Below are positions 1 to 23,650 of a DNA stretch of 23,650 nt, in pieces. This DNA is from a virus. The stretch is from IMG/VR virus record IMGVR_UViG_3300025286_001551, positions 1 to 23,650 of that record; one strand, given 5' to 3'. Each line of letters begins with the position of its first letter. Position 1 is the first letter of the stretch. The notes beneath the pieces were generated by a model. The model did not search any database. It was not told the origin of the DNA and was given only the letters and a program-made list of their open reading frames with translations. The translations under genes were made by a program, and so were the position numbers.

Positions 1-1031
1 ACATCAGATCTATCATCGAGGACCATATTAGATAAGTTAACATTGCCAAGGCAGCAATTACCGTAGCTTGGTAGAGATATCTCTCCGCATGGATTTGTGG
101 AGTCGAGGGATTCAAAATAAGATACATTAGTGAAGCTATTGGCAAGATCAATATTGTAAACGCCAGGGTCTCCAGACTCGACAGCATTTTCCCAAATAGT
201 CTTCCAAAGATCCCTTGCTTTGATTTGTCCTTCTCCCACATATTTAAACTCATCCTTCCAATGCTTTTGATAGAAGTTTTTAGCTCTGGTTATAGCATCT
301 TCTTTATCGAGACCAGTTACCATAATCTCTTCATACACTTCTGGTTGCTGTTCGTTCTCTCTGGCTAACACATAAGGGTGGTACTTCTTATTGTTAAATG
401 TAAAATACCAGTCCTCATCTAACTCTACAGCCTCAAGAAATCTATTAGTAATAGCAACTGAAATGTTAAAGTTATTTAGTTCACCTTTGTCCAGTTTTAC
501 ATGAAGAAAATCCATTAAATCTGGATGTGTTACATTAAGTATACCCATGAGTGCGGTTCGACGGTTCTTACCTGCTCTAACATGGTCTCCAATCTCATTG
601 ATCATTTTAAGTACAGAGACAGATCCGGGAGCAGAATTAGCAACATTACCAATGTCATCCCCTTTAGGTCTAATCTTAGAGACATTAAATCCAATGCCTC
701 CACCAGCACAAGAGATCTGGTACATATCTGCTACGGTCTTACCTATACTTGCTACATTATCTTCAGGTACAATGACATAACAGTTGAGCATATTGTAGCT
801 ACCACCATTTCTTCCTGCACCGTAGATAATCCTACCCCCAGGAATAAAGTCTCCACTCCCCACTATATCATAAAATAGTTTCTCTACTTTCTCCTTATCC
901 GAATCCTTCTCAGCAGTAGCTACAGACCTAGCAATAACTTTAGCTCTCTCAGCCCACTTAGTTTCCCCTGGGTATGCGTATCTCGTATCAAAGATCTCTT
1001 GTCCCAGTTCGGATAATTTTACTTGTGCCAT
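1..1031 (-). CDS. Ribonucleotide reductase catalytic chain, probably class II (partial, 3' end beyond window)
   Basis: 343 codons are visible, open to the left edge. It would reduce ribonucleotides to deoxyribonucleotides for phage DNA synthesis. Seen: NCYV with Cys84 (the first redox cysteine of the family), a GGGIGF loop near residue 110, and NPCGEI with Asn313, Cys315 and Glu317, which match the thiyl-radical Asn/Cys/Glu set, followed by NCCLG with the second redox cysteine. There is no N-terminal ATP cone. The NRRTALMG and NPCGE context and the lack of a visible neighbouring NrdB favour an adenosylcobalamin-dependent class II enzyme (NrdJ-type), but the C-terminus and the left flank are missing, so class I is not excluded. 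The ATG start overlaps the end of the gp46-like gene by 13 bases, so it is the last visible gene of the replication operon. Confidence 0.85.
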   Translation of the reverse strand, partial: MAQVKLSELGQEIFDTRYAYPGETKWAERAKVIARSVATAEKDSDKEKVEKLFYDIVGSGDFIPGGRIIYGAGRNGGSYNMLNCYVIVPEDNVASIGKTVADMYQISCAGGGIGFNVSKIRPKGDDIGNVANSAPGSVSVLKMINEIGDHVRAGKNRRTALMGILNVTHPDLMDFLHVKLDKGELNNFNISVAITNRFLEAVELDEDWYFTFNNKKYHPYVLARENEQQPEVYEEIMVTGLDKEDAITRAKNFYQKHWKDEFKYVGEGQIKARDLWKTIWENAVESGDPGVYNIDLANSFTNVSYFESLDSTNPCGEISLPSYGNCCLGNVNLSNMVLDDRSD

Positions 1032-2542
1032 ATTTTAGATATACCTTTCTTTTTCTCCACCGTTAAACGCTTAGACGAGTCTAATAATGTCTTTAGGTGT
1101 TTGTTGTGTGTGATAACGAATATTTGTCTTGTCTTCTTCAACTCTAACAATAGATTATAGAGTCCCTGTATACCATCCTCATCTATATTCTCAGCTACTT
1201 CATCGAAAAACAATAGATTTGAGTGGTTTGTGTCTGTGAGTAGTAAAAGGTCTTTAAGAGCCATCATGATGGCAAGGTTTAGTTTTCTCTTTTCTCCTCC
1301 AGACAATGATATATAGTGTATTTCTTGGTCACCAATTTTTATGAACTCGGATAATTCCTCATCAAATTCTAAAGAAAAGTTAGGGTCCGTTAGATATGAG
1401 AGGTAGTAGTTGGTACGGTCATTAAAATACTCCAAAACATTACGAATAATATACTTAATAATTCCTTTCTCTGATAATGCCCTCTCCCAGAACCTCATTA
1501 CCTGAGATCCTGTGTGGGAAACAGCTTTCTTATCCTCAAACTCCTTAATCTTCTCTTCCTTCTCCTTCTTTAAACCTTCCAGCATCTCAGCATTACCTTG
1601 AGCCAGTCTAGCATAGTCTACGGTGTACTGAGGCTTAACTGGGAGATCTATGCTATCCATTGTAGCATACAACTCATCTAATTCAAGCTGTTTATCTGCT
1701 TTTTTCTGCTCAAAATCATCTCTAGATATAGTTTGTCCACAAGTAAGGCATTTGGGATGCTCATCCTCCATTCTCTTTTCGTAATGAGATATACCATACT
1801 GTAGAGATTCTTTTTTTCTGTCCAACTCCTCCCATAGGCGAACATTTCTATTATATACATACCATTCCTTCTCTAACTCCTCTAAATCTATATCAACATC
1901 TGTCTGCACTTTGGAGAGTTTCCTATCTAGATTCATAATGTCGTACTTGTATGTATCTATTACTGCGTCTGCTAGTTTAATTCTCTGTGAGTACTCAGAC
2001 TTATACTCTCTAATATGTTCACGCATATCAAAGATTTCATCTAGGTTAAGGAAGTTTCTAATGATATCTCTCTTAACAGCAGGAGTACAGTCCAAGAAGT
2101 TTACATCATTAGACTGACCAAAGAACATAGATGCTAATAGAACCTTATAGTTTGTACCAAGCAACTCATCAATAATAGCTTGAGAATCATTAGCATGTTT
2201 AGCTGTAATGTCTTCCCCATCTAGAGTAAGTGTCATCTTGGTAGGCTTCTTGCATCTTTCAATGCTTAAGATCTTAGTGTTATCAAGTAGGATGTTACAA
2301 CTAACCACAAGTCCTTTACCTGCCTGGGTATTAACAAGAGAAGCTTCGGTACTCTTACGAAGAGTCTTACCAGTTAGAGCAAAGTAGATAGCTTCTACGA
2401 TAGAGCTTTTACCTGACCCATTACTTCCACCAGTGTCTAAGTTCTTCCCTTTAATAATTGTTAGCCCATCAAACTTCTTCAAGTCTATACGGGCTTTCTT
2501 AATGGACAAGAAGTTTTGTATTGTTATATCTCTAATCTTCAT
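1019..2542 (-). CDS. 46: Recombination endonuclease subunit gp46-like (Rad50/SbcC ATPase)
   Basis: This is the ATPase half of a gp46/gp47 (Rad50/Mre11, SbcC/SbcD) complex that resects DNA ends and drives recombination-dependent replication. Seen in the 507 residues: Walker A GSNGSGKS at 39-46, a central charged, probably coiled region, a zinc-hook CLTC at Cys265/Cys268 at its apex, the ABC signature LSGGEK at 413-418, Walker B LLFFDE at 443-448, and a switch histidine in FVITH near 479. The length is close to T4 gp46, with the same short coiled coils. The ATG lies inside the last codons of the gp47-like gene (11-base overlap), with AAGGAG 12 bases upstream, so translation is probably coupled. 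All catalytic motifs are intact. Confidence 0.95.
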   Translation of the reverse strand: MKIRDITIQNFLSIKKARIDLKKFDGLTIIKGKNLDTGGSNGSGKSSIVEAIYFALTGKTLRKSTEASLVNTQAGKGLVVSCNILLDNTKILSIERCKKPTKMTLTLDGEDITAKHANDSQAIIDELLGTNYKVLLASMFFGQSNDVNFLDCTPAVKRDIIRNFLNLDEIFDMREHIREYKSEYSQRIKLADAVIDTYKYDIMNLDRKLSKVQTDVDIDLEELEKEWYVYNRNVRLWEELDRKKESLQYGISHYEKRMEDEHPKCLTCGQTISRDDFEQKKADKQLELDELYATMDSIDLPVKPQYTVDYARLAQGNAEMLEGLKKEKEEKIKEFEDKKAVSHTGSQVMRFWERALSEKGIIKYIIRNVLEYFNDRTNYYLSYLTDPNFSLEFDEELSEFIKIGDQEIHYISLSGGEKRKLNLAIMMALKDLLLLTDTNHSNLLFFDEVAENIDEDGIQGLYNLLLELKKTRQIFVITHNKHLKTLLDSSKRLTVEKKKGISKIWHK

Positions 2543-3542
2543 CTGGTAGTGGGTCTCCTTTCTTGAGCAGAGAGTATCCTTCCATTAAATTTTCTTTAGT
2601 TAAGGTAGGAGATACATCGCAGTTCTCGACATAATCAGTAATGATTTGCTCGTTAATCGTAAACAAATCTCTATTAGGTTTATACTTAGATATCTCATCA
2701 TCATCTCCAAACGCAGGGGCTACTTTAATATCTAACTCCTCTACACGCAAGTTCTCAGATAATTCAGAGGCAGACTCATCTGATCGTAATGATACTCGTA
2801 ACATAGTATACCAACTAGCGTCACTTAATTCTTCTGCTCTGTTGTTAGCCTCCTCTAAAGAGGTTACCACATGTCTTGGTCCGAATCGTACTTCTTTGAA
2901 CTCTTCCCTGACAGGTCCGACTGATTCCTCATGAAGGACAAGATAATATCCTTGGGTTCCTGCTTCACCATAGTTTGTGCTGTATGGAGTGCCAAGAATT
3001 GTAACCAATCCATTTTGTTTAAAGTTATGAATATGTCCAAGGTAAGTTTTACACTTAAAGTCAGAGATGCTAAGAGTAGAATCGGCATCACCAACAGAAT
3101 TGAGGCTACCGAGATAACCAAAGTGCCCAAAAGCTTTAGCGTCTTTAGGACAGCGTGACAAGTACGCTCTAGTAGTGTTCTCATTTTCGTAATGAGGGAT
3201 GAAATATTTATCATTATAAGCTCCAAAATGGTTCCAAACATGGACATACTGAGATCTATACACTTCTAATGCTGTCAACCCGTTATCTGATTTATCAGCA
3301 GAGTCATGATTACCCCTTAACAGGTGTACATTTATATTAGCATCTGTCCAAATGTCTAACAACTCTTTAAACCCAACCAACACCCTGGGGCTGGGATTTC
3401 TATGCATGAAGATATCCCCTAGAAAAATAATCTCATCAGGATTCTCGTCAACAATAATAGATTCTATAGTAGCTAGTTGAGCATTAAGATGCCCCCTACT
3501 TTTACTATCTAAATGAATGTCTCCAATAACTACAGTTTTCAT
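2532..3542 (-). CDS. 47: Recombination endonuclease subunit gp47-like (Mre11/SbcD nuclease)
   Basis: This is the metallophosphoesterase nuclease partner of the gp46-like ATPase. The 336 residues carry the Mre11-family metal-binding series: GDIHLD at 7-12, LGDIF at 41-45, GNHDS at 77-81, a histidine in FGH at 140, and GHIH at 169-172. The length matches T4 gp47 (about 340). Its ATG overlaps the stop of the polymerase piece as ATGA and its own end overlaps gp46 by 11 bases, so polymerase, gp47 and gp46 appear translationally coupled. The acidic C-terminus probably holds the partner-binding region, by analogy with the family. No missing residues are visible. Confidence 0.95.
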   Translation of the reverse strand: MKTVVIGDIHLDSKSRGHLNAQLATIESIIVDENPDEIIFLGDIFMHRNPSPRVLVGFKELLDIWTDANINVHLLRGNHDSADKSDNGLTALEVYRSQYVHVWNHFGAYNDKYFIPHYENENTTRAYLSRCPKDAKAFGHFGYLGSLNSVGDADSTLSISDFKCKTYLGHIHNFKQNGLVTILGTPYSTNYGEAGTQGYYLVLHEESVGPVREEFKEVRFGPRHVVTSLEEANNRAEELSDASWYTMLRVSLRSDESASELSENLRVEELDIKVAPAFGDDDEISKYKPNRDLFTINEQIITDYVENCDVSPTLTKENLMEGYSLLKKGDPLPDED

Positions 3543-4612
3543 AGAACAGGTCTCCCATCTTTAAACTCTACCTCTTTACCATCCCCAAAGGAAGTACCTA
3601 CTTCAGCATCAATCTTCAATGGGAGGTTAAACTGGATACCAAAATCTTTTTTAACTGTCTTATAATTCACCATCTCATCGTACACGATCTCTAGTACCTC
3701 CTCCACCTCATCGTGAGGAGCAATAATCTCTACAGAGTCATGTACGGTGGCTACTATACGGGCATTGAGCCCCTTAAACGATTCCGTGATACCCTTGATC
3801 GCACAGAGCAGTATGTCAGATGCTGCACTCTGGATTGTGAAATTGAGCCCTTGTCGGAGCGCACCTTTAGAGACTTGATTATCGCGTGAGCGTACATCAG
3901 GAAGATTCCTCCTCCTGCCAAATATAGTATAAGCATATTGGTTTTGTCTAATAAAATCATGGACGAAATCCATGTAGCGGAAAATGCCAGGATAAACTTC
4001 TGCGTACTTTTCAATTATCTTTTCTGATCTTCTTTGTGAGATGCCTGTAGTTTCCGAAAGTCGGTATGCTCCTCCTCCATAAGCAATAAGGAACGATACC
4101 GCTTTAGCAATCTGTCGCTCCTGCTTCTTAATTTTCTCTTCTTTCTTTTGGAACAACAGACTTGCCGTATAAGTATGTAGATCTACTCCAGCAGTAAATG
4201 CCTCCTGCATCTTAGTTTCTTTTGCTATGTGTGCTAGAACTCTCAACTCCATCGCTGCATAGTCTACAGTAATAAATGAGTGTCCTTCAGGAGCAGTAAA
4301 CATACTCCTGATATTGTGCTTGTCTTCTCTAGGTAATGTATGAAAGGAGACTCCCATATTACTATAAGAAGCACAACTAAGACGACCAGTTAAAGTCCCG
4401 TCCATTCGGTAATCTACATACACCTTATTAACATCATTAAAGTCTACTGCTCTCTTAATACCATTCACATAAGTATTATACAGCTTCTGTACTTTGCGTA
4501 GCTCTAGTAAGGAATCTAACCAACTCTTAGCTTCACGCAAATCTTCCGTAGACTTCTTGCTAATGTAGTCTTCGCTGATTTGCTTGTCTAGATTCTTATT
4601 TCTTCTTACCAC
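3539..4612 (-). CDS. Family A DNA polymerase, palm/fingers piece (third of three polymerase ORFs)
   Basis: This carries the nucleotidyl-transfer half of the replicative polymerase. Seen in the 357 residues: TGRLS at 75-79, motif A with catalytic Asp117 in DYAAMELR, motif B with Arg166, Lys170, Phe174 and Tyr178 in the exact spacing of E. coli Pol I R754/K758/F762/Y766, a QSAASD segment near 260, and motif C HDS with catalytic Asp292. It lacks most of the thumb and all of the exonuclease domain, which lie in the two upstream ORFs. It starts at GTG inside the end of the middle piece, with GGAG (4623-4626) ten bases upstream; the reading frame is shifted +1 relative to that piece. A stop at 4619-4621 prevents an in-frame upstream extension. 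The 3' end overlaps gp47 as ATGA. Confidence 0.93.
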   Translation of the reverse strand: MVRRNKNLDKQISEDYISKKSTEDLREAKSWLDSLLELRKVQKLYNTYVNGIKRAVDFNDVNKVYVDYRMDGTLTGRLSCASYSNMGVSFHTLPREDKHNIRSMFTAPEGHSFITVDYAAMELRVLAHIAKETKMQEAFTAGVDLHTYTASLLFQKKEEKIKKQERQIAKAVSFLIAYGGGAYRLSETTGISQRRSEKIIEKYAEVYPGIFRYMDFVHDFIRQNQYAYTIFGRRRNLPDVRSRDNQVSKGALRQGLNFTIQSAASDILLCAIKGITESFKGLNARIVATVHDSVEIIAPHDEVEEVLEIVYDEMVNYKTVKKDFGIQFNLPLKIDAEVGTSFGDGKEVEFKDGRPVL

Positions 4613-5081
4613 GCTTCTCTAGCTCCGCTTCAATTTGTGTGAGTAATGTGTCTAGGGATTGTTTGTTGGTGGAGGGGCTACCCTTGTCTGTCATTATAGG
4701 TGGGTAAAAGCCGAACCCCTCATCAGAGTAGAGAATATCTATAAGATCTTTTGTAGACAACAAGTTTGCAGTCTTCGCTACCTTGTCTGACACATACAAT
4801 CCATCTTCAATATCCATCAACAACTGATTCAGGGTTCGGCCCACCACACCCAACTCATCTAAGCTAACATCCAATCCTTTATATTCAATGTCTGCGAATA
4901 CAGGGAAAAGAGGAGAAAGAAGTTTGTCTAGCACAGGTAATGTCCCGTTCGCCACCAGTTTATCCTTTAGCTCATCATATATCCTCAAAGTATAAGACGC
5001 ATCTAAAGCATTACCTGTAGCGCACTCCTCCAAAGTAAGTGCTGCCCAATCAAACTTCTTTCCCTCTTTTACCGTAAGCAC
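4596..5081 (-). CDS. Family A DNA polymerase, exonuclease-III-motif/thumb piece (second of three ORFs)
   Basis: This 161-residue ORF is the middle of a split polymerase. Its first 40 residues finish the 3'-5' exonuclease domain: the ALDASYTL segment holds Asp27 of the Exo III motif. The tyrosine expected four residues earlier in the DEDDy motif is Gly23. The rest reads as the thumb: a VFADIEYKGLDV segment near residue 65, then a loop ending in SPSTNKQSLDTL, which in intact polymerases leads straight into the ELRKVQKLYNTYV helix that begins the next ORF. The GTG start overlaps the upstream TAG as TAGTG, with GGAG (5090-5093) eight bases before it. A protein of this composition is unlikely to act alone, so it presumably assembles with its neighbours or is joined to them by frameshifting. 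Confidence 0.85.
   Translation of the reverse strand: MLTVKEGKKFDWAALTLEECATGNALDASYTLRIYDELKDKLVANGTLPVLDKLLSPLFPVFADIEYKGLDVSLDELGVVGRTLNQLLMDIEDGLYVSDKVAKTANLLSTKDLIDILYSDEGFGFYPPIMTDKGSPSTNKQSLDTLLTQIEAELEKRGKKK
4623..4626 (-). promoter_or_regulatory. Internal Shine-Dalgarno at polymerase junction 2
   Basis: GGAG lies ten bases before the GTG at 4612, within the last codons of the middle polymerase piece. Its purine-rich context suits re-initiation. It decides the choice of GTG as the start of the palm/fingers piece, because an in-frame stop closes the frame at 4619-4621. Confidence 0.5.
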
Positions 5082-6091
5082 TAGAAGTTCTCCAATTCTT
5101 CAGGGAAGAAGAGTTTCACTAGATCCATGAGACTCTTCGGGAGGACTTCATTATACAGGTGTGCCATTATTTTTGTATCGTATACATTCACAGGAGAAAT
5201 ACCATACTTGAGGAGGAACTTAATATCAAACTTACAGTTCTGGAGGATCTTCTTATTAGCCTGATTCTCCAGCACCCACTTCACATGAGTACCAAGTATA
5301 CTAGCAGCCTCTTCCTCAGTAAAAGGGCTTTCTCTATGAAATATGGGAATAACCCAATTTCCTTTGTGAGTACTAAAGGCTATGGTCATGATGGTGTCTG
5401 TTAAAAAGTTAAGCCCTGTGGTTTCAATATCACACGCTAGGTCATCACTAGTTTGGGCTAACTCATCACAGACCTCCTCAACCTCCTCCATAGTAGAGAG
5501 CAGAGTGTAATCAAAGTCTGCCTTGGTTGTATTTCCAAACACATACTTATCAACAGCGTTCTTAATGTCCCTCTCAAAGAGAAACTTATTCTTAGGCTCA
5601 ACCACTACCTGATATGGGTGGTACAAAGGAACCACATTATAATCTTCGTACTTGTACAGGGAGCCTCTCTTATTAGTAATCCCAGACTTTTTAATAAGCA
5701 TCTTCATAGCTAGGTTTCCACAAACGAACACTAACTTGGGCTTATAATTCTCTATAGTATGGGACAAGTGGGCTCGACAAACCTCCCTATCTGAGGGGGT
5801 CATGTCAGCATCTTTAACACTCGGACACTTAACTGAGGGAGAGAATGCATACGAAACTTTAAGTGGGACTATAATATCTTCGATAAGATCTTTTGCTTGC
5901 TTAGGTAGAGGGATACACTTCCCACTATTTTTACAGGCGTAAGACTCAGTAACAAATAGTACATCTACAGGCTTAACATCCTCATAATCAACAATACAAT
6001 GTTCAGACTTGTTGATCTTAAGAATGGAGCAACCCTCACATAAGGGGTTGATACCAACTCCGCTCTCAGCATATAAATTATTAAGGTTCAT
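5081..6091 (-). CDS. UDG-like domain fused to 3'-5' exonuclease N-terminal part (first of three polymerase ORFs)
   Basis: Residues 1 to about 185 resemble the uracil-DNA glycosylase superfamily found at the front of SPO1-type polymerases. Cys18-x2-Cys21 and Cys89-x15-Cys105 have the spacing of the Fe-S ligands of family 4 UDGs, and HP at 158-159 corresponds to the second active-site motif. The first active-site motif (normally GEAPG) reads VTESY, so glycosylase activity is doubtful. Residues 200-336 begin the DEDD exonuclease: Exo I DIETTGL with Asp221/Glu223 and Exo II NCKFD with Asn285/Asp289. The ORF stops at FFPEELENF, just before the Exo III motif encoded in the next ORF, one base back in frame. 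Its ATG shares the bases CATG with the divergent sigma-factor start, and no clear ribosome binding site is visible. Confidence 0.85.
   Translation of the reverse strand: MNLNNLYAESGVGINPLCEGCSILKINKSEHCIVDYEDVKPVDVLFVTESYACKNSGKCIPLPKQAKDLIEDIIVPLKVSYAFSPSVKCPSVKDADMTPSDREVCRAHLSHTIENYKPKLVFVCGNLAMKMLIKKSGITNKRGSLYKYEDYNVVPLYHPYQVVVEPKNKFLFERDIKNAVDKYVFGNTTKADFDYTLLSTMEEVEEVCDELAQTSDDLACDIETTGLNFLTDTIMTIAFSTHKGNWVIPIFHRESPFTEEEAASILGTHVKWVLENQANKKILQNCKFDIKFLLKYGISPVNVYDTKIMAHLYNEVLPKSLMDLVKLFFPEELENF
5090..5093 (-). promoter_or_regulatory. Internal Shine-Dalgarno at polymerase junction 1
   Basis: GGAG lies eight bases before the GTG at 5081, inside the last codons of the UDG/exonuclease piece. 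It supports re-initiation at TAGTG rather than ribosomal slippage; no X-XXY-YYZ slippery heptamer is present at the join. Confidence 0.6.
6072..6079 (+). promoter_or_regulatory. Possible late-type promoter element before the sigma-factor gene
   Basis: TATAAATT matches the T4 late promoter TATAAATA in 7 of 8 positions and ends 10 bases before the plus-strand ATG at 6090. It lies inside the start of the divergent polymerase gene, so a chance match in AT-rich coding sequence is possible. Confidence 0.35.
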
Positions 6092-6431
6092 GGCGAAACA
6101 CTACATAGACAACGACAGATTTGAGGAACTGATCTTATTATACCAGAACGAATCCACAAAACATCAGGAAGAGCTATTTTCTTTGTTCGACCTATTAATT
6201 CAGAATATTATTAACTCTTACGGGTTCGATGTAGAAAGGGATGATGCCAAGCAAGAGTGCTTTCTACTAATCCTAAAGACTATAGGAAAATTCAAACCAG
6301 AGAATGGAAAAGCTTTTAATTACTTCACTACTATTATAATGAATAACTTAAGGCTTATCTATACAAAGAATAAAAAATACCTGTCTAAATTAGAGGCTTA
6401 TGAAGAAATAATTAAGAACAGGTCTAAATAA
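6090..6431 (+). CDS. 55: Late-transcription sigma factor, T4 gp55-like
   Basis: A 113-residue protein resembling T4 gp55, the small sigma factor that directs host RNA polymerase to late promoters. The segment from about residue 52 to 95 (AKQECFLLILKTIGKF, then KAFNYFTTIIMNNL, then a Lys/Tyr-rich stretch) matches the sigma region 2 pattern of gp55 proteins, in which an acidic/aromatic helix is followed by an F-x-Y-F-T helix that reads the -10 box. The protein is shorter than T4 gp55 (185 residues). The ATG at 6090 is preferred over an in-frame ATG at 6009, which would lie deep in the polymerase gene; AAGG sits three bases before 6090. Being plus-strand in a minus-strand block, it probably has its own promoter. 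Several gaps in this window carry gp55-type promoter matches. Confidence 0.7.
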   Translation: MAKHYIDNDRFEELILLYQNESTKHQEELFSLFDLLIQNIINSYGFDVERDDAKQECFLLILKTIGKFKPENGKAFNYFTTIIMNNLRLIYTKNKKYLSKLEAYEEIIKNRSK

Positions 6432-6437
6432 GTCGTA

Positions 6438-6767
6438 TTACCTCTCCAACCCCAGCCGCTTACAAATATCAGTTACATGATTAGTAACCACCACCCTCTT
6501 ATCATTACCTCTTCCCTCAAGAATTACCAACGAGGGAACCTTATCTAATTTCCAAATTACAAAACTGTGGGGAGCGTCAAAAGAGTTTATGATGCTAACT
6601 GATCTCTTGGAAGGGTTGCTTTCTAGCCTCTGTACCAAGTTATCAGAAACTTTATCCCAAAGAGACGTAAAAAGAATAAACTCTCTAGATCCCCTAATCT
6701 TCTGATCCTTAATAAGTTTATTGAGTTCGTTTTCTTTTATAATTTTTCTGGGTGGATGATTAATCAT
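6438..6767 (-). CDS. Small protein with a probable thioredoxin-like fold lacking the CxxC motif
   Basis: 109 residues. The order of elements suggests a thioredoxin fold: a strand ILFTSLW, a helix where the WCxxC active site would be (LWDKVSDNL here), a strand SVSIINSF, then KVPSLVIL, which looks like the cis-proline strand, and a final helix. There are no cysteines at the active-site position; the only Cys is near the C-terminus. So it cannot be a redox thioredoxin and, if the fold is right, would be a binding or structural variant. It could equally be an unrelated small phage protein. The start is ATGA-overlapped with the upstream 112-residue gene, so the two are coupled. It converges with the sigma gene, whose stop is 6 bases away, with no terminator hairpin seen. 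Confidence 0.6.
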   Translation of the reverse strand: MINHPPRKIIKENELNKLIKDQKIRGSREFILFTSLWDKVSDNLVQRLESNPSKRSVSIINSFDAPHSFVIWKLDKVPSLVILEGRGNDKRVVVTNHVTDICKRLGLER

Positions 6768-7102
6768 ATTATGTTATCTTCTGATTCCGAAATATCCTCT
6801 TCAACTTCCTTCAAAGAAACCTCTCCGTCTTCTATTTTTATAGCGTCTGCCATATGCTCAGTTACATTCTGTTCTAAGGTTGTTAAACCTAAAAAGAAGA
6901 TAGACTTAACGAATTGCTCCTCTGATAGATGCTCTGGGCACGTAACCTGCTGAAAACTAGTGTACGCTGCGGCTTCATCCTGACTTAATTTAAATGTAAT
7001 TTTCATACGATTTTTACCTCTGTAAGTTAACTTAACATTCCAGTTATTAACGTCTATCTCACCACCAGAGCAAGAAATTGGTTGAATGTCCATGTTAAAC
7101 AT
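6764..7102 (-). CDS. Hypothetical protein, 112 residues
   Basis: Not recognised. Residues 1-50 are rich in beta-type segments (NWNVKLTYRG, MKITFKLS); the second half contains a likely helix (SEEQFVKSIFFLGLTTLEQNV), and the C-terminal 25 residues are strongly acidic (EVEEDISESEDN). In-frame ATGs at 7102 and 7093 are both possible starts, neither with a strong ribosome binding site; 7102 is given. Its stop overlaps the next gene as ATGA. Its promoter region is shared with the divergent nuclease gene (29-base gap). It could be a small regulator or an accessory replication protein, but nothing in the sequence decides this. Confidence 0.6.
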   Translation of the reverse strand: MFNMDIQPISCSGGEIDVNNWNVKLTYRGKNRMKITFKLSQDEAAAYTSFQQVTCPEHLSEEQFVKSIFFLGLTTLEQNVTEHMADAIKIEDGEVSLKEVEEDISESEDNII

Positions 7103-7131: not shown

Positions 7132-7656
7132 ATGGAAGATTTATACAATTTAGATAATCTGCGTAAGAAACCTAAGCGTAAGAACAGTAAGGCCAAGGGG
7201 TCAGCGTTTGAAAGGAAGGTAGCAAAGCTTCTTAATGAACACTTTGAAACCACCGACTTCCAAAGAACCCCTGGGTCGGGTGCATTCGCTACTACTCATA
7301 AGCTACCAGACCACCTAAAAATCCATGGAGATTTGATAACTCCTAAGAATTTCATCTATACCATCGAATGTAAGAAGGGTTACAACGATCTGGACCTATA
7401 CTCCCTACTCAATCCAAAATCTAAGATCTATGAGTTCATCAAACAGACAGAAAAAGATGCTGAAGAAGCAAATAAATCAGGAATTGTGTTGATGGCTCAG
7501 GATCGTCGTGATATTATAGTTTTAATTAAGCAGGATAGCCATATATGTAATCAACTAAAGCTTAACAACAAAAGAGTAATATACATCTTGAAGGACTATG
7601 CCTTAACAGCATTTAAAGATCTACTAAGTATAGATAGGTCTTTATTCTTTAATTAA
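7132..7656 (+). CDS. PD-(D/E)xK nuclease, probable Holliday-junction resolvase
   Basis: 174 residues. A Lys-rich start is followed by KGSAFERKVAKLL, with Glu27 in the helix where Hjc-type resolvases carry their first acidic residue. Then come RTPGSGA (45-51), Asp67 in HGDLI, and Glu79-Cys-Lys81 in the second catalytic strand, completing E...D...ExK. The order and the RTPGSGA loop are typical of archaeal Hjc and phage relatives. T4-type phages need a resolvase (endonuclease VII) to clear branches before packaging, and none other is visible here, so this gene may fill that role. It has the strongest ribosome binding site in the window. Its 3' end overlaps the convergent 900-residue gene by 15 bases. 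It could instead be a general repair nuclease. Confidence 0.75.
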   Translation: MEDLYNLDNLRKKPKRKNSKAKGSAFERKVAKLLNEHFETTDFQRTPGSGAFATTHKLPDHLKIHGDLITPKNFIYTIECKKGYNDLDLYSLLNPKSKIYEFIKQTEKDAEEANKSGIVLMAQDRRDIIVLIKQDSHICNQLKLNNKRVIYILKDYALTAFKDLLSIDRSLFFN

Positions 7657-10344
7657 GTGAGTAAACATTAACTGTTGAACTTCTAAGAGCTTGTTCATAA
7701 GTTCTTTAGAGGAGTACTGGGTACTATTTAAATCCATCTTAGGTTCATCCTTACCAGTTAAACCTATAGATCCATCTCTACCTATCCCATTACCAGAGGT
7801 ATACGATAGCCCGTGTCCAACACCCTCAGTCCCAAGACCCCCTAAATTAAATCCTGTCCCAGACTCCCTAAATTTTAAGAAAGATAATGGATTATCTGAA
7901 GCAATCATAGGTCTAACAGCATCTCGTACTAATTTATTTCTTTTATATTTTTTAAAGCTTCTTTTTGTGGGACTAACATCACAAATGACATCACTACAGT
8001 CATCTCTATCTATAGCTCCTCTAGCAAACATCCATGCTATAACATGTTTATATCGAGGATCATTAGCAGCCAAACCTTTTCTAAGGAACCCATGAACAAA
8101 CTGATCCTTTAGGTCTGCCTCCCTCTTCTTCTTTCTATTAGCTGAAAATTTTCCTAGATCATCTTCAGAAGGCATATATAACCCAGTGTCTGATGGCACA
8201 GCAGCCATTAATTCGGATCTGATTTGATCACCATCTAGATTAGGGGTTCTAGTATCAGGACTAAGCAATTTATCAATATGACTTAGACCCCTCTCCAGAC
8301 CCTCAAAGACGTCAACCATAGCTCTCTGCTCAGTTTTCTGCATAGCTCTACTTTTACCACCCTTTAATGGAATCCTGATATTTTCTCTCATAGCAGACAT
8401 CCACTTCTGATCAAGTAAAATATTTCTACCCCCTTTCTGTCCTGGGACATGATCATCAAACATACCATTCTTACCAACAGTAAGCTGACTTAAAGTTTCT
8501 AGGATGGTATCATGATAAGTTCTTGTACTACTTAATTTAGGATTACCACTAGTGTAATACTTAAGAGAGTCCCACGCAGCATACACCTCTGTCTCAGAAT
8601 CATAACTAGAGTCTAACCCCCAATCTTTTATTATATCCTCTACCTTACCACCAATAAGAGCAGCTATATCTCCTAATGCAACTTTATCAGTAGTAGAACC
8701 GAAATACTCTTTAGCTTTTTCTTCACCATCCTTATCCCCACTAAAAAGTAAAACTTGGTCTGCTTTAAACCCCTGTTTACCTGCATCAGCAGCATCACCA
8801 GTTCGTAAAGCTGCAATCGCCCCAGAATTCTTTATAGTTTCCCCTCTAATCTGTGCAGCTACTCTTAAAAATCCCCCAAAAGTATCTGATACATCCTCTA
8901 TCTGGGACATAGCCTCTATCCATTCCTCGGCAATTTCCGTGGTGCCCATCTCCCCACTATAAACCGCATCAGATATCTGAAGAACTTTTCCAATGTTCTT
9001 TTTGTATTCGTTATCTAATTTATTGTACTCTTTCTTAGCCTGTTCCCATCTTTCTAAACTAAGTAAAAGAATAATCCTATCTATATTCTCTGATACATTA
9101 GTTATAATTGCTGTAGACTTTACGGATGTATCTCTAGTCTTAAGAAGCCCTCTATCTATAGTCTCTATAACCAATGTTTTAGCATGATCATCATCTAATT
9201 TTTCAACAACACCATTGTATTCTTTGATAGTATCTATGAGTTCTTTATGTCTACCACCATCAAATTGAATACCCAAATCACCAAACCCATCAGATATAAA
9301 TAGTAAAGTCTTCCCCTTTACAGTTTCTACTAATTTGAAATTATTTCGTATCATTTCTAATTGATCTACTAAGGGATTACCCTCATCAGTTATGGGATTA
9401 GTAAGTGCTGGCAAAAGATTTAATAAATTATCTACTGCGCCCTCTATTTGATCAGGATTTGCGATAGATCTATCTAATTTTAGACCACCAAGCTCCCCTA
9501 AGGATACTCCGAAAGCCTTACCCCCCTTCATAGTTTTAGAAACGGCACCAAAGAAAGACATATCATCATGTATGTCCCCATACCTCCCCCATTTTTCTGG
9601 GTCTTGCTTAAACTTAGTATAAAGTGCAACAAGATCCCCTAAAGTACCATCTAAAACCGTATTTCCATCTTCGTCAGTACGTTTGGGGGGAAATGCGGTT
9701 TGTAACTCAACCCCTAAACGAGTGTCACGAAATTCTTGATAATTTGGGTTAGTACCAAGATCCTCACCAACTTCAGCCCCAGACTCAGACTGCCATAACC
9801 ATCTAGTAACTTCATTAGTGAAAAATTGCTCAAATTGGAAAGTGGTATTACATTCTTTATCTATTACTGCGTCCCTGTTTGGGTTTGATGCCCCCCTTGC
9901 AGTCCAATAAACTGCACCCACGCAAGATTCATCACTAGCAGTGGGTGAATCTAATGCTGCGGAATCAGGTTTTTTTTCAGTAGATTTATCTTTTTGTGTT
10001 GTAGCCCCTTCTGTATTCTCAGATCTAGGTTGGGTTATAGCAAACTCTTTTACTAACTCTGCATCACCAGCTAAGTTTACACTTACATTATCCCCACTCT
10101 GACCAGGAGTGCTTCCTCTAAAAACAGATGTGATTCTTCTAATAATCTCTTGAATAGTCTTACCCGCTGCTGTGAGAGGATCAATTTCCCCATCAGGATT
10201 ATTATGTTTGGCTATAAGAAGAAGTTTTCCGTAGGTAATATCAGAAGTGGCCTCATCAATCCTAGAAGACTCATCAATCTTGATACGCAGTTTCCTCTTC
10301 TTAAGAAGTCCGTAGCTCGTTAGTAAATCTTCAAAAAAATTCAT
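7642..10344 (-). CDS. Large unrecognised protein, possibly a processed internal capsid protein
   Basis: 900 residues from the ATG at 10344; the frame is open to a TTG at 10371, but that codon lies in the loop of a hairpin and is not preferred. I do not recognise the family. The N-terminus is short, hydrophobic then basic, and ends IDESSRIDEATS: both IDE triplets fit the T4 prohead-protease site (Leu/Ile-x-Glu, cleaved after Glu). Next comes a Ser/Thr/Lys-rich linker (about residues 105-140), then long mixed stretches with TLLFISDGFGDLG near 355, a basic segment KRSFKKYKRNK near 800, and a Gly-rich tail before an amphipathic C-terminal helix. It is the last gene of the tail operon, behind its own late-type element. 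An ejected internal protein, as T4 Alt is, would fit; a tail protein is the alternative. Confidence 0.8.
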   Translation of the reverse strand: MNFFEDLLTSYGLLKKRKLRIKIDESSRIDEATSDITYGKLLLIAKHNNPDGEIDPLTAAGKTIQEIIRRITSVFRGSTPGQSGDNVSVNLAGDAELVKEFAITQPRSENTEGATTQKDKSTEKKPDSAALDSPTASDESCVGAVYWTARGASNPNRDAVIDKECNTTFQFEQFFTNEVTRWLWQSESGAEVGEDLGTNPNYQEFRDTRLGVELQTAFPPKRTDEDGNTVLDGTLGDLVALYTKFKQDPEKWGRYGDIHDDMSFFGAVSKTMKGGKAFGVSLGELGGLKLDRSIANPDQIEGAVDNLLNLLPALTNPITDEGNPLVDQLEMIRNNFKLVETVKGKTLLFISDGFGDLGIQFDGGRHKELIDTIKEYNGVVEKLDDDHAKTLVIETIDRGLLKTRDTSVKSTAIITNVSENIDRIILLLSLERWEQAKKEYNKLDNEYKKNIGKVLQISDAVYSGEMGTTEIAEEWIEAMSQIEDVSDTFGGFLRVAAQIRGETIKNSGAIAALRTGDAADAGKQGFKADQVLLFSGDKDGEEKAKEYFGSTTDKVALGDIAALIGGKVEDIIKDWGLDSSYDSETEVYAAWDSLKYYTSGNPKLSSTRTYHDTILETLSQLTVGKNGMFDDHVPGQKGGRNILLDQKWMSAMRENIRIPLKGGKSRAMQKTEQRAMVDVFEGLERGLSHIDKLLSPDTRTPNLDGDQIRSELMAAVPSDTGLYMPSEDDLGKFSANRKKKREADLKDQFVHGFLRKGLAANDPRYKHVIAWMFARGAIDRDDCSDVICDVSPTKRSFKKYKRNKLVRDAVRPMIASDNPLSFLKFRESGTGFNLGGLGTEGVGHGLSYTSGNGIGRDGSIGLTGKDEPKMDLNSTQYSSKELMNKLLEVQQLMFTHLIKE

Positions 10345-10352
10345 GATAGTAG

Positions 10353-10395
10353 AAGAGCCCAACCCAACCAAAGACAGAGGCTGAGTTGGGCTCTT
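10353..10395 (-). other. Intergenic stem-loop upstream of the 900-residue gene
   Basis: The 11-base arms 10353-10363 and 10385-10395 are perfectly complementary around a 21-base loop. No T-run follows on the minus strand, where it is followed by CTACTATC and the ATG, nor on the plus strand, so it is not a classic terminator. If the element at 10400-10407 is a late promoter, transcription would begin at about 10394, making this a 5'-terminal mRNA hairpin. Confidence 0.7.
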
Positions 10396-21019: not shown

Positions 21020-23650
21020 TTAGTCTAATGGGGTTGGCTCTATGGGGGTATGGTCAATCTTAGCCTTCAACCATACTATATTTTCATAAACTGAAGACTT
21101 ATCATCATTATTCCCCAACCAATTTTGAGATCTATAATTCTTTAGTCTAGGGTATAATTTATTAACAGATTCATCAGAGGAGGGTTTACCTACACTTAAC
21201 GCAGAACTAAACTCATTAAAATTTCTACACTCTCTATGTAGATACTTCATCATGGGTATCTCCATCCTATCATAAACCTCGTACCAATTAATAGTATTAT
21301 TAGAAGGTATTACATAATCATCTTTCATAGCTTTAGCCAGCCTGTAAACCTCTCTTACACCAAAAGCTGGTCTGGGTAATGTAGGTTCACCTTCATTATA
21401 AAGATTATTATCAGCTATAGATTTAGTATTCATAGAATATTGTACAGCCTGTGTATTCTCAACAGTGGGGTTTATCCCCCTTCCTGGGTACGCTAATCTT
21501 TCTTTTAGGAAAATGGGATCCCAAGTATCTAATTTGTCAGGATTATAATCTAACACTATTTTCAATTCTCTCATACCGTAACCTACAGACTTAGATATAG
21601 CGTGAGTCAGAATATTCTCCGTTCTGTCAGAGGGGTAGGCTACTATGGTCTGTACAGGACCCCTTCTAGGGATTATTGGGAGTCCACCATTATCGTAAGA
21701 AGCTTCATCGAATAAATCTAATACAAAATCTTTGGATATAACCTCGATAGTTCCATCATTTTGCCAGTAACTAGCTATAGGATCTTCAGCGTTAAAATAA
21801 AACTCCAGGTAGGGGAATGCTGCTCCCGACCCTTCCGTATTTACCCAGGCATTCCTTGCGTCTACATCTGTTTCATACTTATAAGTAGCTTTACTTTTAC
21901 GTATAAAAGGATTATCTCTAGGCATATCTTCTACATCCTGTAGAGTAAACATATAAAAATCTTTTCGCTTATTAGAAATACCATATTTTTCATCTACTCT
22001 TGAGGAGGCATCAGTAGTAACTTTCATAGTAAAATCATACTCATCCCCAAGTATATACATTAGTTTTTGTAATACCTCAAGACTAAGTATTCCTGCTCTA
22101 TCAATTAAACTCTTAACGGGTATTTCTGCTATCCCCCCGTCTGATAAAGTAACTCTCTGTAAATCACCATTACTCATAACTAATGTACCATCCCCGTCTA
22201 GAACTATGGTATCCTTAATATCATAATATAAAATAGTAGTAGTACCATCAGAGGTAGTTATAGGAAGACCCTTCTCTAAATCAGGAGCCAAAGTCTTCCA
22301 AGTCCTAATACGCTCCGCTACTCTAACTTCGGTATAGTTATCAAATTTAAGAGGCCATATAGATTCGGTGGCTAACTGTATAGCTGCTGCCTCATTAGCT
22401 ATAGTGCCTGTACGAGTAGTAAGAATTTTAGTAACCTCCACCTCATCTTGGTTATAACCCACTCTAACTCTTTGAGCATCAACATCCACCATCCTATCTG
22501 CAACATGAAGCCAATCCGTAATATCTAAAGTATCCACTTTATTAAGTACTATTAAATTTCTAACGGTCCTTATAAATTCTTTTGTTATTGTTCTTCCAGT
22601 TGAATCTTTAGCCTTATTTAATCTTTCAATAATACTATCATGTATACTTTTTACTAAATTTTTAGTATTTAAATCAGTAAAAGGTCTATCACTAAATCTA
22701 ATTTGTTTATTAATGATATCCACAGTAGCTTTAATACCTACATGAACTATATCTTTAAATAAATCACCTCTTAAATTTCCTCTAGGAACTCCTACAAAAG
22801 TTCTACTGTTTTCAAATTTTGTGTTGTTAACATACTTTTGGTATACAGGATCCGTGTTACCATCTACACCATAAATTTTTTCGTAAGCAGTCTTCCCACC
22901 ATAAAGAGCATACCCATCATCAACAGGTTCCTCTACTTCCTCTACTACATCCTCCTCTCCTGGACCCCCTTCCCTCGTACTGGGGTCGCACTCCTCACCA
23001 GCTAATATACACTCAGCCTGAGTCTCATAACAGGTTGGAGGAGCAAGAGGTTTTAAAATACACGCCCCATTTACCATATGCTTCTCACATGAAATGCTTG
23101 GCTCACAATTAAGATCTGGTCCTCCTATAACTATAGTTTCCCTATCCTCTATGGGCATTATACATAAATATCCATCAGGACACCCAGCACATGCTGTGTC
23201 ACATGCATCTTTTGTTAGATAATGATCAGCTTTAGAACCGTTATAAATACCATTGGGGCACCCTTCAGGGGCTATATCACAATTATCACCTTTTAAAGTA
23301 ACTTCGGTACATAGATGATAACTTCCCCCTTCCAACCTAGTACATTTCCATGCTTGACAAGTTAACTCTTCTTTACAGGTAGCATCACAACTAGGCTTAT
23401 CACTATATACCGTTTCACCACCAACTTGACAAGTTAATCCTGGGCTTGAAATGCACTCCTTAAGAATATTGAAAAAGTTAGGGCACTCCCAATCACCAAC
23501 CATAGTGCCATCACAATCCCCTTCCGCTAGAGGGTCGCACTCCTTGTCCTTACAAATGTAACCAGGGCACTCAGCACCACCAGTACACAATTGATCACCC
23601 GCAAAGTCAGCAGCTATACAGCTTTGGGGATCTTTGTATGCCCCCAAACA
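21020..23650 (-). CDS. Large cysteine-rich tail/baseplate-associated protein (partial, 5' end beyond window)
   Basis: The frame is open to the right edge, so the start is missing; a TTG at 23647 is not taken as a start. In the visible ~876 residues, the first 220 hold 26 cysteines and the other ~655 only one. The cysteine part repeats Tyr-x5-Cys four times (Tyr4, 81, 143, 207 counted from 23647), with Cys-x3-Cys following twice, and Cys-x4/5-[Tyr/Trp]-x-Cys pairs between: a tandem disulfide- or metal-bound module. An acidic linker (EEDVVEEVEEPVDD) leads to a long mixed domain I do not recognise. Being directly before PAAR, it is likely a baseplate, hub or adsorption protein. T4 gp6 is about the size of the C-terminal part, but I see no clear match. 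Confidence 0.85.
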   Translation of the reverse strand, partial: CLGAYKDPQSCIAADFAGDQLCTGGAECPGYICKDKECDPLAEGDCDGTMVGDWECPNFFNILKECISSPGLTCQVGGETVYSDKPSCDATCKEELTCQAWKCTRLEGGSYHLCTEVTLKGDNCDIAPEGCPNGIYNGSKADHYLTKDACDTACAGCPDGYLCIMPIEDRETIVIGGPDLNCEPSISCEKHMVNGACILKPLAPPTCYETQAECILAGEECDPSTREGGPGEEDVVEEVEEPVDDGYALYGGKTAYEKIYGVDGNTDPVYQKYVNNTKFENSRTFVGVPRGNLRGDLFKDIVHVGIKATVDIINKQIRFSDRPFTDLNTKNLVKSIHDSIIERLNKAKDSTGRTITKEFIRTVRNLIVLNKVDTLDITDWLHVADRMVDVDAQRVRVGYNQDEVEVTKILTTRTGTIANEAAAIQLATESIWPLKFDNYTEVRVAERIRTWKTLAPDLEKGLPITTSDGTTTILYYDIKDTIVLDGDGTLVMSNGDLQRVTLSDGGIAEIPVKSLIDRAGILSLEVLQKLMYILGDEYDFTMKVTTDASSRVDEKYGISNKRKDFYMFTLQDVEDMPRDNPFIRKSKATYKYETDVDARNAWVNTEGSGAAFPYLEFYFNAEDPIASYWQNDGTIEVISKDFVLDLFDEASYDNGGLPIIPRRGPVQTIVAYPSDRTENILTHAISKSVGYGMRELKIVLDYNPDKLDTWDPIFLKERLAYPGRGINPTVENTQAVQYSMNTKSIADNNLYNEGEPTLPRPAFGVREVYRLAKAMKDDYVIPSNNTINWYEVYDRMEIPMMKYLHRECRNFNEFSSALSVGKPSSDESVNKLYPRLKNYRSQNWLGNNDDKSSVYENIVWLKAKIDHTPIEPTPLD

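Follow-up and report, generated by a model that had tools for sequence, protein, structure and literature searches.

We found that the viral DNA analysed here (the window, 23,650 nt from a single IMG/VR metagenomic record) encodes a family-A DNA polymerase in three consecutive genes, p1, p2 and p3, produced by two gene fissions, and that the three polypeptides very probably associate non-covalently into one enzyme. The split itself is real and conserved, judging by sequence comparison with relatives; assembly of the products into one enzyme is what we infer from it. Family-A replicative polymerases are normally single-chain. An earlier note on this DNA had read the three collinear ORFs as one UDG-like/exonuclease/family-A polymerase of 854 residues, a total that the three products do give, and both domain matches and conserved motifs agree with that reading. 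Its coordinates, overlaps (1 and 17 bases), frame changes (-1 then +1) and common frame for p1 and p3 (6091-4612 = 1479 = 3 x 493) all check. The locus is laid out as follows.

p1, 5081-6091, minus strand: 336 aa, ATG start; UDG-like domain and first part of the exonuclease
p2, 4596-5081, minus strand: 161 aa, GTG start; remaining exonuclease and first part of the thumb
p3, 3539-4612, minus strand: 357 aa, GTG start; remaining thumb, palm and fingers
J1, 5081, minus strand: p1 stop and p2 start sharing one base (TAGTG); in relatives, site of cargo insertion
J2, 4596-4612, minus strand: p2 stop and p3 start overlapping by 17 bases; the GTG preceded at 10 nt by an SD-like GGAG
SbcD/gp47-like phosphoesterase, 2532-3542, minus strand: next gene downstream, 4-base overlap with p3
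SbcC/gp46-like ATPase, 1019-2542, minus strand: downstream, overlapping the neighbouring gene

Upstream and divergent from p1 lies a sigma-factor-like ORF (6090-6431, plus strand; weak match to PHROG 351), the start of which overlaps the p1 start region and which has a similar counterpart at the same position in L066. Elsewhere in the window, two large minus-strand proteins without PHROG match (7642-10371, 909 aa; 21020-23647, 875 aa) lie in a structural-gene region.

Pfam recognized the outer two products directly, with UDG (3e-8) and DNA_pol_A_exo1 (5e-15) on p1 and DNA_pol_A (PF00476, E 6e-79) on p3; p2 alone had no match in Pfam or PHROGs. A family profile built from 28 relatives of p2 matched Klenow index 159-294 (E 4e-11), the p1 profile matched the family-4 UDG 4zbx and Klenow index 6-132, and the p3 profile matched Klenow index 302-585, so that the three tile the Klenow chain in order. 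With these index ranges assigned to what we take to be the exonuclease and thumb regions, the ordered mapping has J1 falling after Exo II and before Exo III, and J2 falling within the thumb, in line with the earlier note's placement of the breaks. Upon inspection of the alignments (28 rows for p3), the catalytic residues proved to be distributed accordingly: Exo I D221/E223 and Exo II D289 on p1 and Exo III D27 on p2 are invariant, and motif A D117, motif B R166/K170/F174/Y178 and motif C H291-D292 on p3 are invariant or nearly so. Thus p3 carries all three family-A motifs with the catalytic Asp, motif C reading HDS rather than HDE, and the DEDD 3'-5' exonuclease set is complete only when p1 and p2 are counted together.

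The amino-terminal domain of p1 shows both the family 4/5 UDG fold and the four cysteines of that group (C18, C21, C89 and C105, nearly invariant). The AF2 model of p1 found the phiLo family-A polymerase 9qhs as best match (324 columns), followed by UDGs and the Klenow exonuclease. Active UDGs carry a GEAPG motif; the corresponding position reads VTESYA in the window and SDS in most relatives, so the usual active-site motif is not kept and glycosylase catalysis by this domain is doubtful. Modelled alone with AF2, p2 was poorly folded (pTM 0.31), and this low-confidence model had no significant PDB match; the poor predicted fold is compatible with a need for partners without being proof of one. 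An alignment of the fused L095 protein with p2 and p3 fragments misplaced p2 and was left out.

Both breaks recur widely among marine viruses with a T4-type capsid. A widened search gave 207 loci with both, many of which overlap on shared contigs, and duplicate removal left 102 distinct p2 sequences; in all, the two breaks are kept in about 100 distinct IMG/VR relatives from many samples and in one contig of 130.6 kb from a Prochlorococcus single-cell assembly (L244, QCKN01000003.1), so the arrangement does not arise only in metagenome assemblies. Fusion of p1 and p2 occurred in none of the 207 loci, the first break being closed in no relative found. Nine close relatives of p3 (82-97% identity) and several of p1 came from other metagenomes, and those long enough to cover the junctions show identical p1/p2 and p2/p3 joins in independent assemblies at 76-97% identity. 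The three genes stay ordered and close together, and their dN/dS values against the closest relatives (0.04-0.14 for p1, p2 and p3) indicate that all three are under purifying selection. The fragments are thus collinear, individually conserved and, as described below, separately initiated, as expected of a split polymerase.

The first break has also become a place where other genes are found. Inserts ranging from <200 to 2,400 bp occupy J1 in 38 of 98 distinct loci, which is why p1 and p2 often do not overlap, and in 26 of those 38 the cargo includes antisense genes, so that p1 and p2 cannot be a single translation product there. By comparison, cargo at J2 was seen in 1-2 of 99 loci, and the gap after p3 exceeded 150 bp in 6 of 68. 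The J2 inserts are a 208-aa ORF in L081 and a 184-aa kinase-like ORF in L317/L319; an apparent 132-bp J2 gap in L031/L394 is probably a contig indel and was left out of the count. Several close-relative contigs carry a 91-aa membrane-like ORF between p1 and p2 (L006:4257-4532, L035:4223-4498, L056:4223-4498, L227:972-1247), which overlaps the stop of p1 with its own start and the start of p2 with its own stop. This ORF is 88-91% identical across L006, L035 and L056 while p1 is only 52-55% identical, and polymerase parts are 43-66% identical between phages sharing an approximately 90% identical copy, a disparity indicating transfer of the 91-aa gene from lineage to lineage. On the starred branches of the tree, cargo is gained or lost at least 13 times. 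Sampled J1 and J2 cargo comprised membrane-like, 2OG oxygenase, glycosyltransferase, thyX, glutamine synthetase, kinase-like and unknown genes, with one PD-(D/E)XK protein in L351; no HNH or GIY-YIG endonuclease, the signature of a homing-endonuclease split, was found in it. An ancestral homing-endonuclease event may nevertheless have taken place at the break.

In all 26 antisense-cargo loci a TATATAG-like motif directly precedes the p2 start (20 nt before p2 in, for example, L012, L024, L044, L050, L061, L202 and L243), and it was absent from all 59 direct loci and all 9 loci with the 91-aa gene. Read on the opposite strand, the motif precedes an SD-like site, after which the antisense gene starts. 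Although chosen after sight of the sequences, it is probably the promoter of the antisense module. In the window, a similar CTATAATAG occurs in the divergent 7102/7132 intergenic region.

We examined the start codons and frames of the relatives for signs of independent translation. The p2 start is ATG in 99 of 102 relatives; for p3, 74 have GTG and 25 have ATG. An SD-like site precedes p3 in 79 of 99 loci versus 18% of ATG/GTG codons inside p3; before p2 in cargo loci such a motif was present in only 5 of 39. Relative to p2, p3 is read in the +1 frame in 75 loci and in the -1 frame in 22, the J2 overlap varies from 1 to 44 bases, and the relative frame at direct J1 junctions, those without cargo, is constant (59/59). 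Taken together, the inserts at J1, the variable J2 frame and the SD-like sites bear out the view already advanced for the window, that p1, p2 and p3 are separately initiated genes and not the product of indels. Two related suggestions held in part. The window does have GTG with GGAG at both joins, 8 nt before the p2 start and 10 nt before the p3 start, but in relatives the breaks are independent of GTG; and coupled translation can be only part of the story, because antisense genes separate p1 from p2 in 26 distinct relatives.

Three explanations would restore a single polypeptide or a single gene, and these data bear on each. An ordinary polymerase ORF interrupted by two indels, from sequencing or assembly, might be suspected in a window drawn from one metagenomic record, particularly as a 2-base difference at J2 (a TA insertion, 6750-6850) is enough to fuse p2 and p3 in the close relative L086. 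That fusion lies near a contig end and may reflect either an error or a genuine re-fusion. Against indels, the same breaks recur in a single-cell genome and in about 100 distinct sequences drawn from many samples, and other genes are inserted exactly at J1. The earlier note had proposed looking for the same two breaks in relatives, and had held that uninterrupted ORFs in all close relatives would overturn a true split; what we found was the breaks conserved in about 100 distinct relatives and the joins shared by independently assembled contigs. By this sequence comparison the indel explanation is already refuted, and we give it practically no credence. Programmed ribosomal frameshifting, which would draw one polypeptide from the overlapping ORFs and for which the same relative frame at 59 of 59 direct J1 junctions could be cited, is very improbable: the p1 stop directly precedes a start with SD-like spacing, separate or antisense genes break up J1, the J2 frame relation takes both values (75 and 22 loci), and start codon and overlap length vary, such that the relatives show no conserved shift site and direction.

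Splicing would be a further route to one chain, with the cargo as introns or the fragment ends as split inteins. Group I introns are common in the PolA genes of SPO1-type phages. Such introns in phage PolA genes have been documented (PMC10580990) and a split-intein PolB is reported for MIJ3 (PMC6892783), providing precedents for both variants. However, Rfam, whose models include group I introns, matched nothing in 11 loci with and without cargo; cargo-free loci present a stop and a frame change with nothing to splice; and neither p1 nor p2 has an intein-like extension in the alignments by inspection. We rate splicing slightly below even frameshifting. A different objection accepts three proteins and doubts their union: p3 alone would replicate DNA, p1 and p2 forming a separate or dispensable nuclease/UDG-like protein. 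It is unlikely, if less so than the foregoing. Palm and fingers are both on p3, and the UDG-like domain could act alone; but the thumb cut leaves p3 without a part that p2 holds together with Exo III, and the two breaks persist along with every motif in three ordered, closely spaced genes.

In the preferred reading the three products associate into one polymerase. As the sequences show, one fission (J1) divides the exonuclease, leaving Exo II on p1 and Exo III on p2, and the other (J2) divides the thumb between p2 and p3; with the coding sequence broken, J1 became an insertion place for other genes on either strand. Joining of p2 to p1 would complete the exonuclease and joining of p2 to p3 the thumb, and since p2 is needed by both partners, the working enzyme would be a p1-p2-p3 complex. 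By analogy, such reassembly is plausible: the split NrdA of Aeh1 (PMC2988022) and fragmented T7 RNA polymerase (PMC4299498) offer precedents.

Searches with distant members uncovered a sister clade (about 41 distinct rows) in which J1 is present and p2 and p3 form one ORF. Its J1 cargo includes thyX-like and glutamine-synthetase-like genes, found between p1 and p2p3 in L257:4939-5616 and L259:4987-5991, as well as a PD-(D/E)XK protein. Single-ORF relatives are only distant (25-33% identity; LysYB1, MW202455, PSU4). Because the two-gene clade has J1 too and no relative found closes it, J1 most simply came first, and the simplest reading of the sequences is a fused gene that acquired J1 and then J2. 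Three members of the two-gene clade (L265, L267 and L386) also have J2 split, and FastTree with SH-aLRT placed them as a second J2 fission; a single J2-split group nevertheless survived the AU test (p 0.44), for which reason we do not claim two independent fissions. The history of J2 may comprise one or two origins, or a re-fusion.

To judge whether this is the main polymerase of the phage, we surveyed the 20 longest contigs (49-131 kb; genome fragments). PF00476 was found exactly once in each, PF00136 and PF07733 in none, and no second PolA, PolB or PolIII-alpha appeared in these 20, a second polymerase being possible beyond the fragments; as far as the contigs show, the three-gene enzyme appears to be the main polymerase. 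A T4-type gp23 capsid gene was present in 20/20. The same contigs had no psbA, sought as support for a cyanobacterial host, though L244 derives from a Prochlorococcus single cell. Overall, we lean towards the view that a major marine lineage with T4-type capsids uses a three-subunit polymerase with its proofreading site across a subunit interface, produced by stepwise fission at J1 and then J2 (the latter possibly repeated), and that J1 serves as a dock through which cargo, including antisense modules with a promoter-like motif, moves between phages.

The three-gene form, together with its two-gene and distant one-gene relatives, would be a rare stepwise record of the passage from a single chain to an obligate complex. 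It supplies natural split sites for PolA engineering, possibly allowing proofreading to be separated from synthesis by omitting a subunit. Annotation pipelines will label p2 hypothetical and overlook a complete polymerase.

For comparison with known systems, p2 had no tblastn match among 50,697 phage records in INPHARED, and the open-access literature searched held no report of a three-part phage polymerase or a three-gene PolA, consistent with the earlier note's statement that a replicative polymerase in three parts lacks precedent; two-piece ones are known. The Rhodothermus phage RM378, which that note had named as a precedent, does have a T4-related capsid (PMC4360716) and keeps exonuclease and polymerase in separate genes. 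We rejected it as a homologous precedent: by its motifs the polymerase is family B, its two genes lie about 57 kb apart, the cut is at a domain border and not through the active site, and RM378 gave no match to the p1, p2 or p3 profiles. Polymerases of the SPO1/Herelleviridae type and of phiLo share the UDG-like/exo/pol domain order, yet are one polypeptide at 25-33% identity. T7 RNA polymerase remains functional when engineered into three or four co-expressed fragments (PMC4299498).

Closer in kind are critical phage genes that were broken, have an insertion at the break and must reassemble (PMC2988022): the two-piece PolB (genes 43A/43B) of Aeromonas phages 25 and 44RR, nrdA of Aeh1, split by mobE with a fully functional product, and the T4 topoisomerase, split by mobA. 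In Aeh1 the mobE start shares one base with the nrdA stop (UAAUGA; PMC2988022), much as the 91-aa cargo starts over the p1 stop here. In these systems, however, a homing endonuclease is present or implied, and 43A/43B is a family-B polymerase with one break; here a family-A polymerase has two breaks, and the sampled cargo contained no HNH or GIY-YIG gene. The OM43 phages MEP401 and MEP402, related to Zobellviridae, carry their DNAP in two ORFs, and in most of that group a marine family-A polymerase is likewise split by a small ORF, though at one break inside the PF00476 polymerase domain (PMC10580990). Two-piece split phage polymerases were thus known already, and what appears new here, going by the open-access papers searched, is the three-gene family-A form.
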